64,000 nt of DNA. Source: Loktanella sp. SALINAS62 (lineage in GTDB: Bacteria; Pseudomonadota; Alphaproteobacteria; Rhodobacterales; Rhodobacteraceae). The stretch lies in NCBI RefSeq assembly GCF_018263905.1, contig NZ_JAAFZU010000023.1:1-64000 (forward strand). The letters run 5' to 3'. Below are positions 37,877 to 45,710 of this stretch, piece by piece. The first letter of the stretch is position 1. Every line of letters begins with the position of its first letter. The notes beneath the pieces were generated by a model. It was not told where the DNA came from and searched no databases. It saw nothing but the letters and a program-made list of their open reading frames with translations. The position numbers and the translations under genes are program-made.

Positions 37877-38884
37877 TCAGCCGCCACGCAGATAGGCTGC
37901 TAGTTCCGCCTCACCTTTGCGCAGGCCACTGACGGGTTTTGTCTTTGCCAAACGGTTGAACAATACTGCGCGTTCATCGGCATGAAGATCGGCCAAATCG
38001 ATGACGGCCGGGTGAATGTAGCTGGTTCGCGATACGGCCGCAGTATTGTGAAGCCGCAGCGCCGCCGCTTCGCACATCGCCTTGATCGTCGGTGCGTCGT
38101 TATTGCAGGCATAGCAGAACGCCGCATGCGTCCCGTTCCACGTGCGCAACGTTTTGGCCGTGACGTCTGCACCACAAATGTCGTGCAGCGCGTCATTGAT
38201 GTGGTCGGACCGGATGCCATGCGTGTCGCCGCGATCGTCGACATAACTGATAAGCTCTGCACCCGGCAGATCCTGTGAATCGTGCAGCACATGCGCCAAC
38301 CGGGGGGCGTAGAAATCCTTTTCCACCTGTTTGCCACCCTTGCCAACATAGGCCAGCGCCAGATGGCCGCCGTCGATGTCGACGTGTTTGTTCAACAGGG
38401 TCGTGACGCCATAGCTGCCGTTTTCATCGGTATAGGCGGCATTTCCGACCCGCATTGATGCCCTGTCGATCAGCACCAAAGTCGCGGCCAACGCGGTATC
38501 GAATGTGCCCGCATCCCCGCGCAGTCGCATTGCAATCCATCGGCGCAGGCTGGGTAAATGATCGGACAGTTGGATCAGGTTGTCGTATTTCAGCTGTGCA
38601 TGCAGCTTTGTCCAATCGGGATGATATCGATATTGCTTGCGTTCGCGTTCATCGAAACCCGTCGCCTGAAGATGACCCAGTGGCATCGGGCAAATCCAGA
38701 CATCGGTATAGGCTGGCGGCACGCCCAAGGATTTCAGACGCGCCCGTTCTGCCTTGTCATCAATCCGTGTGCCGTCTGGTGCAATGTAACTGAAACCGCG
38801 CCCGGCGCGTTTGCGCCGGATGCCGGGTTCGCTGTCAGGGTAATATATCAGGTCGGATCGCCCCTGAAGATCGGCGTAGGCCAT
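37877..38884 (-). CDS. DNA topoisomerase IB (poxvirus type)
   Basis: This 335-residue enzyme relaxes supercoils by a 3'-phosphotyrosine intermediate. The active-site set can be followed: Arg145 in SMRVGNAAY, Lys182 in YVGKGGK, Arg247 in TLRTWNGTHAA, Asn280 in LHNTAAVSR (His in some relatives), and nucleophile Tyr289 in SRTSYIHP. The length is typical for bacterial TopIB. Its ATG overlaps the HVA1 stop (TGATG), so both are likely transcribed from the EcfG-type promoter at 39297-39273. Confidence 0.94.
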   Translation of the reverse strand: MAYADLQGRSDLIYYPDSEPGIRRKRAGRGFSYIAPDGTRIDDKAERARLKSLGVPPAYTDVWICPMPLGHLQATGFDERERKQYRYHPDWTKLHAQLKYDNLIQLSDHLPSLRRWIAMRLRGDAGTFDTALAATLVLIDRASMRVGNAAYTDENGSYGVTTLLNKHVDIDGGHLALAYVGKGGKQVEKDFYAPRLAHVLHDSQDLPGAELISYVDDRGDTHGIRSDHINDALHDICGADVTAKTLRTWNGTHAAFCYACNNDAPTIKAMCEAAALRLHNTAAVSRTSYIHPAVIDLADLHADERAVLFNRLAKTKPVSGLRKGEAELAAYLRGG

Positions 38885-39099
38885 CAGGCTTTCTCTATTT
38901 CCGTGATCGACTTGAACACTTCGTCGCCGTCGTCCTGTTCGATCCGGAATGACGGTTCTTCCGCGCTTGCGTCACGCGTGATCTCTGTACCGCTGATTTT
39001 CAGGGTCCGCTTCTGCGTATACTTCTGGGTCACTTTTCCGGTGCCGGTGCCGGACCCCCAATTCCATTTGACGCGGTCGCCTTCGTTGATGCTGGACAT
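38884..39099 (-). CDS. HVA1 (DUF2945) family small protein
   Basis: This 71-residue hydrophilic protein (MSSINEGDRVKWNWGSGTGTG...) matches the HVA1/DUF2945 family, a Tudor-like small beta-barrel; SGTGTGKVTQKYTQKR is the signature region. Members occur with stress and DNA-related genes; molecular function is unknown. CAGGAGCG precedes the ATG. It is coupled to the TopIB gene downstream and carries a long leader with a hairpin. Confidence 0.85.
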   Translation of the reverse strand: MSSINEGDRVKWNWGSGTGTGKVTQKYTQKRTLKISGTEITRDASAEEPSFRIEQDDGDEVFKSITEIEKA

Positions 39100-39189
39100 G
39101 TCTCGCTCCTGTGTGTTGTGGCACCCACTGTGGCGCATCCCACTGCGGGGCACGCGGCGCGGGTGGCCAGTAACTTAAGAGGGAATGGC

Positions 39190-39234
39190 GCGACCGGACC
39201 CTCACTTTCGGGGAGGAGGTTCAGGTCCGGTCGC
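39190..39234 (-). ncRNA. Hairpin leader element with anti-Shine-Dalgarno loop
   Basis: GCGACCGGACC and GGTCCGGTCGC are a perfect 11-bp inverted repeat (39190-39200 / 39224-39234). Read on the minus strand, the 23-base loop contains CCTCCTCCCC, a sequence complementary to Shine-Dalgarno sites. It lies between the EcfG-type promoter and the HVA1 ATG, so it would be transcribed in the 5' leader or as a separate small RNA. Similar loop motifs define the cuckoo/CcsR stress sRNAs of Rhodobacterales, which have two such hairpins; only one is seen here. Confidence 0.4.
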
Positions 39235-39272
39235 ATATCAATCGGCGGGGGACAGCGCCTTGATGATGACTG

Positions 39273-39297
39273 AACGCGTATCGCCCCGTCCGGTTCC
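39273..39297 (-). promoter_or_regulatory. Predicted EcfG promoter for HVA1-topoisomerase IB
   Basis: On the minus strand GGAAC (39297-39293) is followed after 16 bases by CGTT (39276-39273). It is a perfect match to the alphaproteobacterial general stress consensus. It points at the HVA1 gene with a leader of about 165 bases. Confidence 0.62.
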
Positions 39298-42325: not shown

Positions 42326-43144
42326 TCAACCGACGTTCAGCGTTTCGGTCGACGAAAAGAACATGGCCTGTGCCACGGCGGACCTGACCTGTTCTTCGGT
42401 ATAGGGTTTGGCGATCAAGAACGCAGGTTCCGGTTTGTCGCCCGTCAGCAAACGTTCTGGGAACGCCGTGATAAAGATAACCGGCATATCACCAAACGCG
42501 CCCAGCAGTTCATTGACCGCATCGATACCCGAAGAGTTATCGGCCAATTGAATGTCGGCAAGGATCAGATCGGGCTGTTCGGAAATACCCAGTTTGATCG
42601 CACCTTCGTGGGTGCGGGCTATGCCCGTCACCTTGTGCCCCATGTCGGACACCAGCGCTTCGAGGTCCATGGCAATGATCGCTTCATCCTCGATGATCAG
42701 GATGCGCCCGGCGATGCTGTCCGCCATTTCGCGGTGGGCGACGCCGACCAGATGCGCGACCTCTGACTCGTCGATGGACATGATGTCTGCAATTTCAGGA
42801 TACGAAAATTCTTCGATGGTGTTCAGCAGCAGCGCTTCGCGGGTGTTGGTCGTCAGCTTTGCAAGATGTCGTTGCGCGGCACCTTCTATGCCAACCGGGC
42901 TTTCGCCGGGTTCTGACGTGTCTGTGCTGGACCACATCATATGTAGCGTTTTGAATAACGCAGATTTTGGAGAAATCTGTGTGTCAAAAATGCTGCGATC
43001 CTCCAAAATCGCCTCGAGCGTGGCAGCGGCATAGGCGTCACCGCTCGCCTGCGATCCGGTCAGCGCCCGTGCGTAGCGCCGCAAAAACGGAAGATAAGTG
43101 CCAATGGCGGTGGTGACGTCCTGGTCGGCATTCGAAGTTGCCAT
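42326..43144 (-). CDS. phyR: General stress response regulator PhyR
   Basis: This 272-residue response regulator has an ECF-sigma-like N-terminal domain (about 1-135) and a receiver domain (about 146-270) with acidic IEDE, phospho-acceptor Asp197 in LILADIQL, PVIFITAFPERLLTG, and Lys247 in LIAKPY. When phosphorylated, the sigma-like part binds and sequesters NepR, freeing the EcfG sigma factor. I chose ATG 43144, with AGGAA upstream. It is divergent from nepR-ecfG, with a perfect EcfG promoter in front. Confidence 0.96.
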   Translation of the reverse strand: MATSNADQDVTTAIGTYLPFLRRYARALTGSQASGDAYAAATLEAILEDRSIFDTQISPKSALFKTLHMMWSSTDTSEPGESPVGIEGAAQRHLAKLTTNTREALLLNTIEEFSYPEIADIMSIDESEVAHLVGVAHREMADSIAGRILIIEDEAIIAMDLEALVSDMGHKVTGIARTHEGAIKLGISEQPDLILADIQLADNSSGIDAVNELLGAFGDMPVIFITAFPERLLTGDKPEPAFLIAKPYTEEQVRSAVAQAMFFSSTETLNVG

Positions 43145-43174
43145 AAGTTTTTTTCCTGTCATGTCCCTGTCTTT

Positions 43175-43199
43175 GGAACCTAACGCCGATTGAAGCGTT
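43175..43199 (+). promoter_or_regulatory. EcfG promoter for nepR-ecfG
   Basis: GGAAC at 43175-43179 and CGTT at 43196-43199, with a 16-base spacer, match the alphaproteobacterial EcfG consensus exactly. It lies about 50 bases upstream of the nepR start, so the sigma factor would autoregulate its own operon. Confidence 0.8.
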
Positions 43200-43207
43200 T
43201 GGGTTCC
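43182..43207 (-). promoter_or_regulatory. EcfG promoter for phyR
   Basis: On the minus strand GGAAC (43207-43203) is followed after 17 bases by CGTT (43185-43182), 38 bases before the phyR ATG. It overlaps the nepR promoter, so the two divergent promoters share most of their DNA. Confidence 0.78.
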
Positions 43208-43249: not shown

Positions 43250-43405
43250 ATGTCCAACGATCCACCGAGCGACAAGGCGCGTCAGCAGATTGATGCCAAC
43301 CTCAAACGCGTCTTTCAAGCTCAAGAGCAGGCTGAGCTGCCCGATCGTTTGAAACAATTGCTAGAGAAACTGAAGGCCCAAGATAACGCTGCGGGGGGTC
43401 AATAA
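43250..43405 (+). CDS. nepR: NepR anti-sigma factor
   Basis: This 51-residue protein binds EcfG and holds it inactive until PhyR-P takes it away. The diagnostic helix is seen as IDANLKRVFQAQ and the NepR core LPDRLKQLLEKLKAQ. Its TAA overlaps the ecfG ATG (TAATG). The gene is short and easily missed, but its position between phyR and ecfG is canonical. The ribosome-binding site is weak, which may keep NepR levels tied to EcfG translation. Confidence 0.93.
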   Translation: MSNDPPSDKARQQIDANLKRVFQAQEQAELPDRLKQLLEKLKAQDNAAGGQ

Positions 43406-43959
43406 TGACGGCTGATCCACGTGACGAACTGGTCGAACATTTGCCCGCCTTGCGGGCATTTGCTATTTCGCTGACCCGAAACGGGTCGACTGCGGATGAC
43501 ATGGTGCAAGATACGGTCGTCAAGGCCTGGACGAATATCGAAAAGTTCGAGCCCGGCACGAACATGCGGGCCTGGCTTTTTACGATCTTGCGGAACACGT
43601 TTTATTCCAGCCGGCGCAAGGCAAAGCGCGAGGTGGCGGACGTCGACGGCATCTTCACAGAGAATATGGCGGAAAAGCCAGCCCACGATGGCCACCTGCA
43701 GATGACCGATTTTCAGACAGCATTCGCAAAGCTGCCTGACGAACAGCGTGAAACCCTTATTCTGGTCGGTGCATCCGGGTTTTCGTACGAAGAGGCCGCC
43801 GAAATGTGCAAGGTCGCCGTCGGAACGATCAAAAGCCGCGCCAATCGTGGCCGCAAGCGACTGGCAGAGCTGATGAATCTTGATTCAGACGGACCTGTTG
43901 AGCTGACCGACAAAGCCACGGTCGCCGTCGTCAGTAACAACGGTAATTCTGCATTCTGA
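43405..43959 (+). CDS. ecfG: ECF sigma factor EcfG (general stress)
   Basis: This 184-residue sigma factor has region 2 with LTRNGSTADDMVQDTVVKAWTNI, NMRAWLFTILRNTFYS, and region 4 with LPDEQRETLILVGASGFSYEEAAEMCKVAVGTIKSRANRGRKRL. It is the EcfG (ECF15) type, recognised by its neighbours nepR and phyR. The TAATG overlap couples it to nepR. It should read the GGAAC-N16/17-CGTT promoters noted in this window. Confidence 0.95.
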   Translation: MTADPRDELVEHLPALRAFAISLTRNGSTADDMVQDTVVKAWTNIEKFEPGTNMRAWLFTILRNTFYSSRRKAKREVADVDGIFTENMAEKPAHDGHLQMTDFQTAFAKLPDEQRETLILVGASGFSYEEAAEMCKVAVGTIKSRANRGRKRLAELMNLDSDGPVELTDKATVAVVSNNGNSAF

Positions 43960-45710
43960 TGCCGGATCGTCAGCCCGATAACGAAGAAACCTTTCGGTTT
44001 CTGCGCGGGCTGCCGTTCAGGGTCGTAGCGTTCCTGTCGCTTGCATTGCTGCCGATCGGTATGCTGGCCGTCTGGCAAACCAAGGGGTTGGACGAAACGC
44101 TTCGGGAACGCACCGAACTTAGCCTTGTGGCGCTGACGGAATTGGCCGCATCGGGCGAACGGCGCGCTATTCAGGCCGCCGTCGGATCGGCCCGCACCCA
44201 AGCGGCAATGTATGAAACACTGATGGATGATCCTGAACGTTGTCGGGCGGCACTGGGTAATCTGGTTGATCACAGTTCGATTTATCGTTTCGTCGGGTTC
44301 ATCCCTGTAAGCGGTTCGATCGTCTGTTCGTCACAACGGTCCGAACTTGAAAATTCTTTTCTCGATCAAAGGGTCATGGCGCTGACGGAATCCACCGTGC
44401 AGTCATTTTTGCCGGTCGTCATCCCGGACGCGGAACCATCCCAATATGCGGTGTTACTGCAACCGATATTCGTCGAAGACACCGTTATCGGTCAGGTTGC
44501 CATTGCCATGCCAGCCGACGTCCTGTCCCAACAACGCGACATGATCTTTGACCGCGAACCGCGTTCGATGGTCATCTACAACCAAGGTGGAGAGATTATC
44601 TCTGCCCAGGGTGAACCCATTGCGCCCGATGTGATCCAGTCACTTGTTACGCCTGATCAGACCGGATCAATTTTTGATCCCCAACGACGTGTAATCAGGC
44701 ACCGCACAGCGAACGACAGGGCCCAGCTTTTAACGACGACGTCGCTTGTGCCCGGTGTGGCCTATGCTGTCGGAAGCTGGTCTGAAAGCAACAGCGGCCT
44801 TGGATCAAGCGCATCCATGTTCCCGACGTTCTTTTTGCCTGCCCTGATGTGGCTGGCCAGTCTGCTGGTCGCCTATTTTGCCGTTCACCGACTTGTCGTG
44901 GCGCCAGTTCAGGATCTGCAAAAGCGGATGCGCCTGTTCGCTGTGAACAGATCGCTGACCGGAACGGCCCAGACAGAACGCTTGCCCACCGAACTGTTTG
45001 AACTGGAACAGACGTTCAGCAACATGGCTTACGACCTGCTCGACGACGAAGCCCGTATGGAAGATTCGCTGCGCGAAAAGAATGTGTTGCTGAAAGAGAT
45101 CCACCATCGGGTGAAAAACAATCTTCAGATGATATCGTCGATCATCAACATGGAAGTGCGGGCCAGCAACGACAGCTTTGCGCGGGATACGTTGAAAAGG
45201 TTGCAGGCCAGAATTATCGGACTCGCCACAGTGCACCGGTATTTATACAAAAGCGAAAATCTGGGCCGGACCGACGCCGCGCCGCTGATGGAAGAAATCT
45301 GCAATGTGCACTTCGATCGCTTGGCAATAACCCATCCCGGCGCCGATATATTACTGGAAGCTGACAGTTTCAGCCTTATCCCCGATCAAGCCGTCCCGCT
45401 TGCCTTGTTCGTCGGAGAAGCCGGCGCACAGGCGATCCGCAAGATGCCTGATCCGTCGGATGAAGCAGGCGTCTTTCACATAAGCCTCAAGATCGTTGCA
45501 CCCGGTATGGCCATGGTCCTATGCCGCAGCTCGTGCAGCGACGTGCCGGACGACACGCGGGATACGGACAGCACCATTGGGCAGCAGTTGATGCGCGCAT
45601 TTGCAATGCAACTGGGCAATACCATCGAAATTACACAGACAGACGGGATAAGAACCGTGTGCCTGACGTTTGCCGTGACAACAAACTTGCCTGACGCGCT
45701 GGATTACTGA
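43959..45710 (+). CDS. HisKA_2-type sensor histidine kinase with degenerate ATPase domain
   Basis: This 583-residue membrane protein has TM1 at about 22-40, a periplasmic sensor region, TM2 at about 288-310, a HAMP-like linker, and a HisKA_2 dimerisation helix with His382/383 in IHHRVKNNLQMIS. The catalytic part (about 440-575) retains hydrophobic strands but the N-box reads FVGEAGAQAIRKM without the usual Asn, and the DxGxG lid is absent (LCRSSCSDVPDDTRDTD). It starts at TGATG overlap with ecfG. By position it should control PhyR phosphorylation, but ATP-dependent kinase activity is doubtful. Confidence 0.88.
   Translation: MPDRQPDNEETFRFLRGLPFRVVAFLSLALLPIGMLAVWQTKGLDETLRERTELSLVALTELAASGERRAIQAAVGSARTQAAMYETLMDDPERCRAALGNLVDHSSIYRFVGFIPVSGSIVCSSQRSELENSFLDQRVMALTESTVQSFLPVVIPDAEPSQYAVLLQPIFVEDTVIGQVAIAMPADVLSQQRDMIFDREPRSMVIYNQGGEIISAQGEPIAPDVIQSLVTPDQTGSIFDPQRRVIRHRTANDRAQLLTTTSLVPGVAYAVGSWSESNSGLGSSASMFPTFFLPALMWLASLLVAYFAVHRLVVAPVQDLQKRMRLFAVNRSLTGTAQTERLPTELFELEQTFSNMAYDLLDDEARMEDSLREKNVLLKEIHHRVKNNLQMISSIINMEVRASNDSFARDTLKRLQARIIGLATVHRYLYKSENLGRTDAAPLMEEICNVHFDRLAITHPGADILLEADSFSLIPDQAVPLALFVGEAGAQAIRKMPDPSDEAGVFHISLKIVAPGMAMVLCRSSCSDVPDDTRDTDSTIGQQLMRAFAMQLGNTIEITQTDGIRTVCLTFAVTTNLPDALDY

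Follow-up and report, generated by a model that had tools for sequence, protein, structure and literature searches.

What is the hairpin that stands before an HVA1-domain gene, 3.0 kb from phyR-nepR-ecfG, in Loktanella sp. SALINAS62, and on what would it act? The preliminary description of this DNA, a stretch of 64,000 nucleotides that we call the window, presented a single hairpin in the stress-controlled 5' leader of HVA1, exposing an anti-Shine-Dalgarno (anti-SD) loop, and offered two readings, a new leader-derived regulatory RNA or a device that sequesters the HVA1 ribosome site. As read from the sequence of the window and its relatives, the hairpin (P2) is probably the second half of a two-hairpin small RNA gene on the minus strand. 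We consider it likely that this is an sRNA gene with an EcfG-type promoter beside the general-stress-response locus, probably acting in trans through its C-rich loops.

Anatomy of the unit

In the window the unit and the gene that follows it are arranged as listed here.

39273..39297, minus strand: EcfG-type promoter GGAAC-N16-CGTT, an exact pattern match
39237..39264, minus strand: hairpin P1 (ATCAA GGCG / CGCC GA TTGAT), from sequence reading and covariation
39190..39234, minus strand: hairpin P2, the hairpin first reported, with CCTCCTCCCC at 39210-39219
39166..39189, minus strand: first, pyrimidine-rich part of what follows P2, with CTCTT as the predicted partner of the HVA1 Shine-Dalgarno
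38884..39099, minus strand: HVA1/TUDOR-domain protein (PF11160), downstream of the RNA, with Shine-Dalgarno (SD) AGGAG at 39106-39110

The arms of P2, GCGACCGGACC and GGTCCGGTCGC, match the sequence exactly as first described, as a perfect 11-bp inverted repeat at 39190-39200 and 39224-39234, and RNAfold predicts a hairpin of 12 bp at -27.8 kcal/mol (z -4.4). The exposed anti-SD loop stands in part: the string is present on the minus strand, but the loop is predicted to be partly and weakly paired internally, and not all ten of its bases are predicted to be open. Perfect 11-bp hairpins with loops of 6-30 bases were counted 10 times in the window, at 3 distinct places (both strands, every register); 40 first-order random windows averaged 1.85 such hairpins, with 8 at most, and a CCTCC-loop case arose once among them. 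The 10-mer CCTCCTCCCC has four copies in the genome, the same count as its reversed control, and is not rare by itself. What raises the element above chance is its conservation together with covariation. That P2 should be a mere terminator, attenuator or chance hairpin, as perfect 11-bp hairpins at two other places in the window might suggest, seems very unlikely in view of the compensatory changes, the near-fixed promoter spacing among relatives and the lack of a T-run after P2 in the window. A T-run of at least 5 after the RNA is absent at 17 of the 20 loci collected, the window included, and occurs only at L076, L086 and L096. Between RNA and HVA1 in G005 and G004 (L019, L020) there is an inverted repeat, GATCCGGAACC/GGTTCCGGATC, followed by TTT, possibly a weak terminator.

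P2 was described as a single hairpin, yet another, P1, precedes it. Upstream of both lies a promoter of what we take to be the EcfG form. This pattern alone proves nothing, because the window has 4 occurrences of GGAAC-N16/17-SGTT where 2.4 would be expected; GGAACC and GTT are present in all 16 aligned loci, 7 of which came from a pattern that itself contained GGAAC and GTT. The putative transcription start would lie near 39263-39266. The P1 loop motif, TGTCCCC at 39248-39254, starts 18 nt past the promoter, and the loop is partly paired in the predicted fold of the long window transcript. The order promoter, P1, P2, pyrimidine-rich tail could be read in all eight same-genus HVA1 leaders retrieved by the protein search. 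The regulatory RNA driven by a stress promoter that had been proposed appears probable.

The working strand could also be the plus strand and the hairpin a leader of DUF2254, which starts about 95-145 nt away on that strand, the inverted repeat being symmetric. We rejected this reading and give it next to no credence, since the EcfG-type promoter and the P1 loop lie on the minus strand and the RNA is kept without DUF2254 in relatives: at L090 and L092-L094 it stands beside phyR, with DUF2254 unmatched in 8 kb each.

Conservation of stems and loops

Compensatory changes in the P2 stem, which the preliminary description had suggested seeking among relatives, were found. In 14 distinct sequences, 110 of the 112 cells formed by the eight outermost P2 pairs are paired and five of these eight pairs are doubly changed, compared with at most 59 of 112 cells and two of eight pairs in slid controls; the register of this set was set by hand, L094 was left out (its arms are the same as those of L078), and L076, L086, L096, L103 and L104 are not in it, their P2 being unalignable. 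MAFFT alignments gave a similar picture within each of two sequence groups, represented by four sequences apiece. In the group of the window, 94.2% of P2 is paired and double changes affect 4 of 13 pairs (as high in 6 of 500 shuffles); in the other group, P1 and P2 together are 91.7% paired (P2 alone 89.3%; as high in 3 of 500 shuffles), and 4 of 21 pairs are doubly changed. P1, aligned in 16 sequences, is 84.8% paired against 28-55% when slid, and none of 500 shuffles reaches its covariation score. Two of five measures are unstriking for P1. Its count of three doubly changed pairs is attained in 22 of 500 shuffles and matched in one slid version, and its pair types are attained in 317 of 500 shuffles. 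An earlier hand-set covariation count of both hairpins omitted bulged bases and the outer part of the G002 P1. From a joint MAFFT alignment RNAalifold predicted P2 only, with many broken pairs, which we attribute to a one-base misregister between the two sequence groups. Judged from these alignments, the RNA structure is under selection, with compensatory changes in both stems.

The loops are conserved in a shorter form than the motif first singled out. The anti-SD core CCUCC occurs in 6 of 14 P2 loops (window, G002, G004, G005, G008, L089), whereas UCCC is present in all 14. For P1, 14 of 16 rows carry TGTCCCC; among the 9 same-genus rows, in whose selection the motif played no part, 7 do. 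The conserved signal is therefore a pair of C-rich loops; by this comparison the complete anti-SD string is one local version of such a loop. Two relatives, L103 and L104 (from 1501), carry UUCCC in the P1 loop, the linker and the P2 loop, giving three possible seeds per RNA.

Distribution and genomic neighbourhood

Promoter, both hairpins and phyR linkage are kept in all nine Loktanella genomes examined; the ninth, G008, was found by a covariance model built from four leaders with the promoter sequence excluded, and the promoter was there at the same place. All or part of the unit was recovered at 11 more loci in other Rhodobacteraceae, five of which directly adjoin phyR. The collection thus comprises 20 loci (G000-G008, G017, G162, G338, G366, G388, L089, L090, L092, L093, L094 and L096), with L089/G436, L091/G003, L095/G008 and L098/G002 each counted as one locus because their sequences are identical or their contigs equally long.

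Searches with patterns and models gave few matches beyond these. A strict promoter-P1 pattern matched 10 times in a collection of 84,980 species, nine times in Rhodobacteraceae and once in Caballeronia, against about 6 matches expected by chance (our own arithmetic, assuming uniform composition); it is therefore the clade and the phyR linkage that carry weight, not the match count. The Caballeronia locus (L097) has neither this anatomy nor this locus and was judged a chance match. A looser pattern was not enriched in 394 genomes of the family, with 14 matches against 19 for its reversed control by our own count; six of the 14 have the whole or partial anatomy, and eight were judged from their folds not to be the RNA. 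A promoter-P1 model matched six of the same 394 genomes, four of them strongly, all already in the model, and two weakly and newly, G162 and G366, which on inspection share the layout, their loops being GUUCCCU and UUCCCUCGG; in G366 the RNA is about 1 kb from phyR. At E 0.01 this model left G017 and G338, which we count as relatives, unmatched, and among 385 genomes of the class its one match was the genome of the window. In G017, G338 and Roseovarius spongiae (L096) the promoter is present, and a T-run terminator comes after a P1-like hairpin. In other genera, stress loci were scanned at 12 of the 13 phyR matches (found in 12 of 25 genomes); one gave a clear relative, G017, and the other 11 gave nothing clear.

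A model built on one of the two sequence groups scarcely detects the other. Model R1 matched six of 121 relatives, all of the same genus (a second place in G006, L032, was judged coding by eye), and missed G000, G004 and G005 at E 0.01, while R2 missed G001, G003, G006 and G007 at E 0.1; G002 and G008 were found by both. In the 394 family genomes R2 matched G000, L048 and L049 only; we set aside L048, judged coding by eye, and L049, where no promoter was found. The distribution of the RNA is narrow.

The unit lies 3.0 kb from the phyR-nepR-ecfG genes in the window, where the stress locus is composed of four genes.

42326..43162, minus strand: phyR, anti-anti-sigma response regulator of the general stress response (Pfam PhyR_sigma2, PhyR_sigma-like, Response_reg)
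43250..43405, plus strand: nepR, anti-sigma factor (PF18557, E 3e-11)
43405..43959, plus strand: ecfG sigma factor (Sigma70_r2, Sigma70_r4_2; position after nepR)
43959..45710, plus strand: HWE/HisKA_2 histidine kinase of the stress locus (PF07568, PF07536)

phyR is found within 5 kb of the RNA at 17 of the 20 loci, among them G017, first found by scanning phyR loci. The three loci without phyR are G338 (L086) and G162 (L103), each with about 1.5 kb of flank per side, and L096, with 8 kb in all. At L078, L090, L092, L093 and L094 roughly 10-80 bases separate the end of P2 from that of the phyR match, and the HVA1 match is absent from the flanking DNA examined; alanine dehydrogenase lies on the other side of the RNA in four of these five loci, the L092 flank being too short to show it. 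Since the RNA gene converges on phyR there, the transcripts could overlap antisense.

A separate observation concerns the stress locus itself: at 43175-43207 of the window, overlapping divergent EcfG-type promoters lie between phyR (minus) and nepR (plus), an arrangement that suggests autoregulation in both directions.

Small RNA gene or leader of HVA1

The hairpin had been placed in the 5' leader of HVA1, a view that, as a general account, the relatives do not bear out. HVA1 follows the RNA at 9 of the 20 loci and has no match at the other 11 in the flank searched (about 1.5 to 10 kb). In G008, a genome 92% complete, HVA1 is unmatched in both genome and flank, yet the promoter, P1 and P2 are kept. 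At six of the nine HVA1-linked loci (G001, G002, G003, G006, G007 and L089) a second GGAAC-N16/17-NGTT stands before HVA1, two of the six with an AGTT ending; no second EcfG-type promoter was found between RNA and HVA1 in the window, G004 or G005. Because the RNA persists in G008 without HVA1 and second promoters occur at six of nine loci, the element is best read as an sRNA gene of its own.

The proposal that the HVA1 ribosome site is sequestered survives in an altered form. We rejected sequestration by the P2 loop, for which the predicted probability of pairing with the HVA1 SD in the full window leader is 0.0; the tail after P2 is predicted to do so at three of nine loci, with mean pairing probabilities (taken over 4-7 bases per SD) of 0.93 in the window, 0.65 in G005 and 0.37 in G004, against 0.00-0.02 at the other six. 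It is just these three HVA1-linked loci that show no second EcfG-type promoter. In addition, CCTC occurs in the 24 nt past P2 at all nine HVA1-linked loci and at none of the six HVA1-less loci with an alignable P2, a split mostly between two lineages sharing ancestry, and thus few independent observations. As far as the predicted folds go, the division of tails and promoters is consistent with HVA1 being controlled by read-through in one sub-lineage.

How much of the element's role could this explain? It may be that the RNA is mainly a cis-acting 5' leader, in which a read-through transcript has its SD covered by the pyrimidine tail and translation of HVA1 is thereby controlled. The tail-SD pairing predicted in precisely those loci without a second promoter and the distribution of CCTC speak for it; the near-zero pairing at the six other loci, the lack of an HVA1 match at 11 of 20 loci and a loop that is not itself predicted to pair with the SD speak against it, and we regard this reading as unlikely. 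A combined arrangement can be put forward tentatively, as a possibility we still hold doubtful: one EcfG promoter would give rise to a multi-seed stress sRNA and also, in the window species and the two relatives where HVA1 has no promoter of its own, to a read-through mRNA in which the sRNA tail would lock the start of HVA1. If that were true, HVA1 would be translated solely once the sRNA part had been cut off or had engaged a target.

Comparison with known RNAs

Hairpins with C-rich, anti-SD-like loops are known from the cuckoo and CcsR RNAs. PMC3927594 and PMC10253847 describe hairpins with CCUCCUCCC loops in rhizobia and CcsR RNAs in Rhodobacter, four of them in R. sphaeroides (PMC10253847). 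Our element shares with these RNAs (CIN1 locus) the type of loop, and the P2 loop of the window is CCUCCUCCCC; it might be seen as such an anti-SD RNA that has kept a single hairpin and come to lie in a leader. The promoter found here is of the EcfG type, where RpoHI/RpoHII promoters would mark a cuckoo or CcsR RNA, its P1 loop is TGTCCCC, CCUCCUCCC is not found in every loop, and CCUCC is missing from 8 of 14 P2 loops. No DUF1127 protein was found among the ten neighbouring proteins scanned, and a true 11-copy CCUCCUCCC array exists elsewhere in the same genome. We therefore rejected membership of the cuckoo family and hold a derivation of this kind to be extremely improbable, in agreement with the earlier remark that this is not an ordinary cuckoo RNA, as loops and neighbour genes differ and the promoter found is of the EcfG type. 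The array (L025, 2455-3160; G000:C78, about 347954-348659) is of the cuckoo/CIN1 type, with a 69-aa DUF1127 protein followed by 11 CCUCCUCCC copies, which are predicted to fold as 11 hairpin loops; R. sphaeroides, for comparison, has four CcsR RNAs.

Rfam had no match in the window at gathering thresholds. Below threshold, ar7 (19.6 bits, cut-off 60) and ar14 (12.9 bits, cut-off 58.8) fall on the element, two of four chance-level matches around it, and a search of 13 loci, the window included, gave nothing at E 1, a weak test in which E-values grow with the bases given. Identity with ar7 or ar14 was dismissed on these scores, far below the cut-offs, and on the empty 13-locus search.

By analogy, the closest known kind would be GsrN, an EcfG-controlled sRNA with a C-rich loop. 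According to PMC5869019, GsrN of Caulobacter has a SigT (EcfG) promoter and a 5' C-rich loop predicted to pair with G-rich sites, its homologs typically stand beside ecfG-nepR-phyR, though not in C. crescentus itself, and GsrN-like EcfG-dependent sRNAs are predicted in Rhizobiaceae. The window RNA is similar in having, on our reading of the sequence, an EcfG-type promoter directly upstream, a C-rich loop near the 5' end that is predicted to be exposed and for which G-rich pairing is proposed, and a place near ecfG-nepR-phyR (17 of 20 loci at most 5 kb from phyR). Unlike GsrN, it has two covarying hairpins with separate C-rich loops and a pyrimidine-rich tail, lacks an evident terminator and has HVA1 downstream at 9 of 20 loci. 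Its strict promoter-P1 motif was found within Rhodobacteraceae alone, bar one Caballeronia match that we judged to be chance; the motif and the promoter-P1 model found no recognisable match in Caulobacteraceae. The loop complements sought are also lacking in leaders of katG, a GsrN target, a matter of targets rather than of family: 13 leaders (two identical), from 20 katG matches in 11 genomes, contain none of GGGGA, GGGGG, GGGAGG and GAGGAGG, a result that rests on the absence of these G-rich motifs, duplex energies being unrestrained and unused. The regulon, if one exists, must therefore differ from that of GsrN.

Discussion

If the element is an EcfG-dependent sRNA gene, stress would free EcfG and the RNA, probably about 90-110 nt long, would be made from the EcfG-type promoter. 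Its P1 would offer UGUCCCC at the 5' end and P2 a second C-rich loop with the UCCC core, and these loops would most likely pair in trans with mRNAs, at G-rich leaders or at ribosome sites, in a GsrN-like manner; Hfq or RNases may handle the RNA. Several results weigh against this account: no T-run at 17 of 20 loci, no target among the katG leaders, a narrow distribution, little mutual recognition between the models of the two groups, a loose pattern that is not enriched, and the failure of the promoter-P1 model to match G017 and G338, which made us slightly less confident. A candidate target signature, GGGGACA-ATG, is not enriched in the window (3 against 2.1 expected), and the other counts of it lacked a fair control.

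Among the open-licence literature matches listed, mostly titles and openings of abstracts, we found no report of an EcfG-controlled sRNA in Rhodobacterales. According to PMC5869019, the general stress response of Alphaproteobacteria has a post-transcriptional arm, known in Caulobacter and predicted in rhizobia. Should the RNA described here be expressed, one could test whether a tie between EcfG and C-rich-loop RNAs, with sequences that vary from one group to another, is general.
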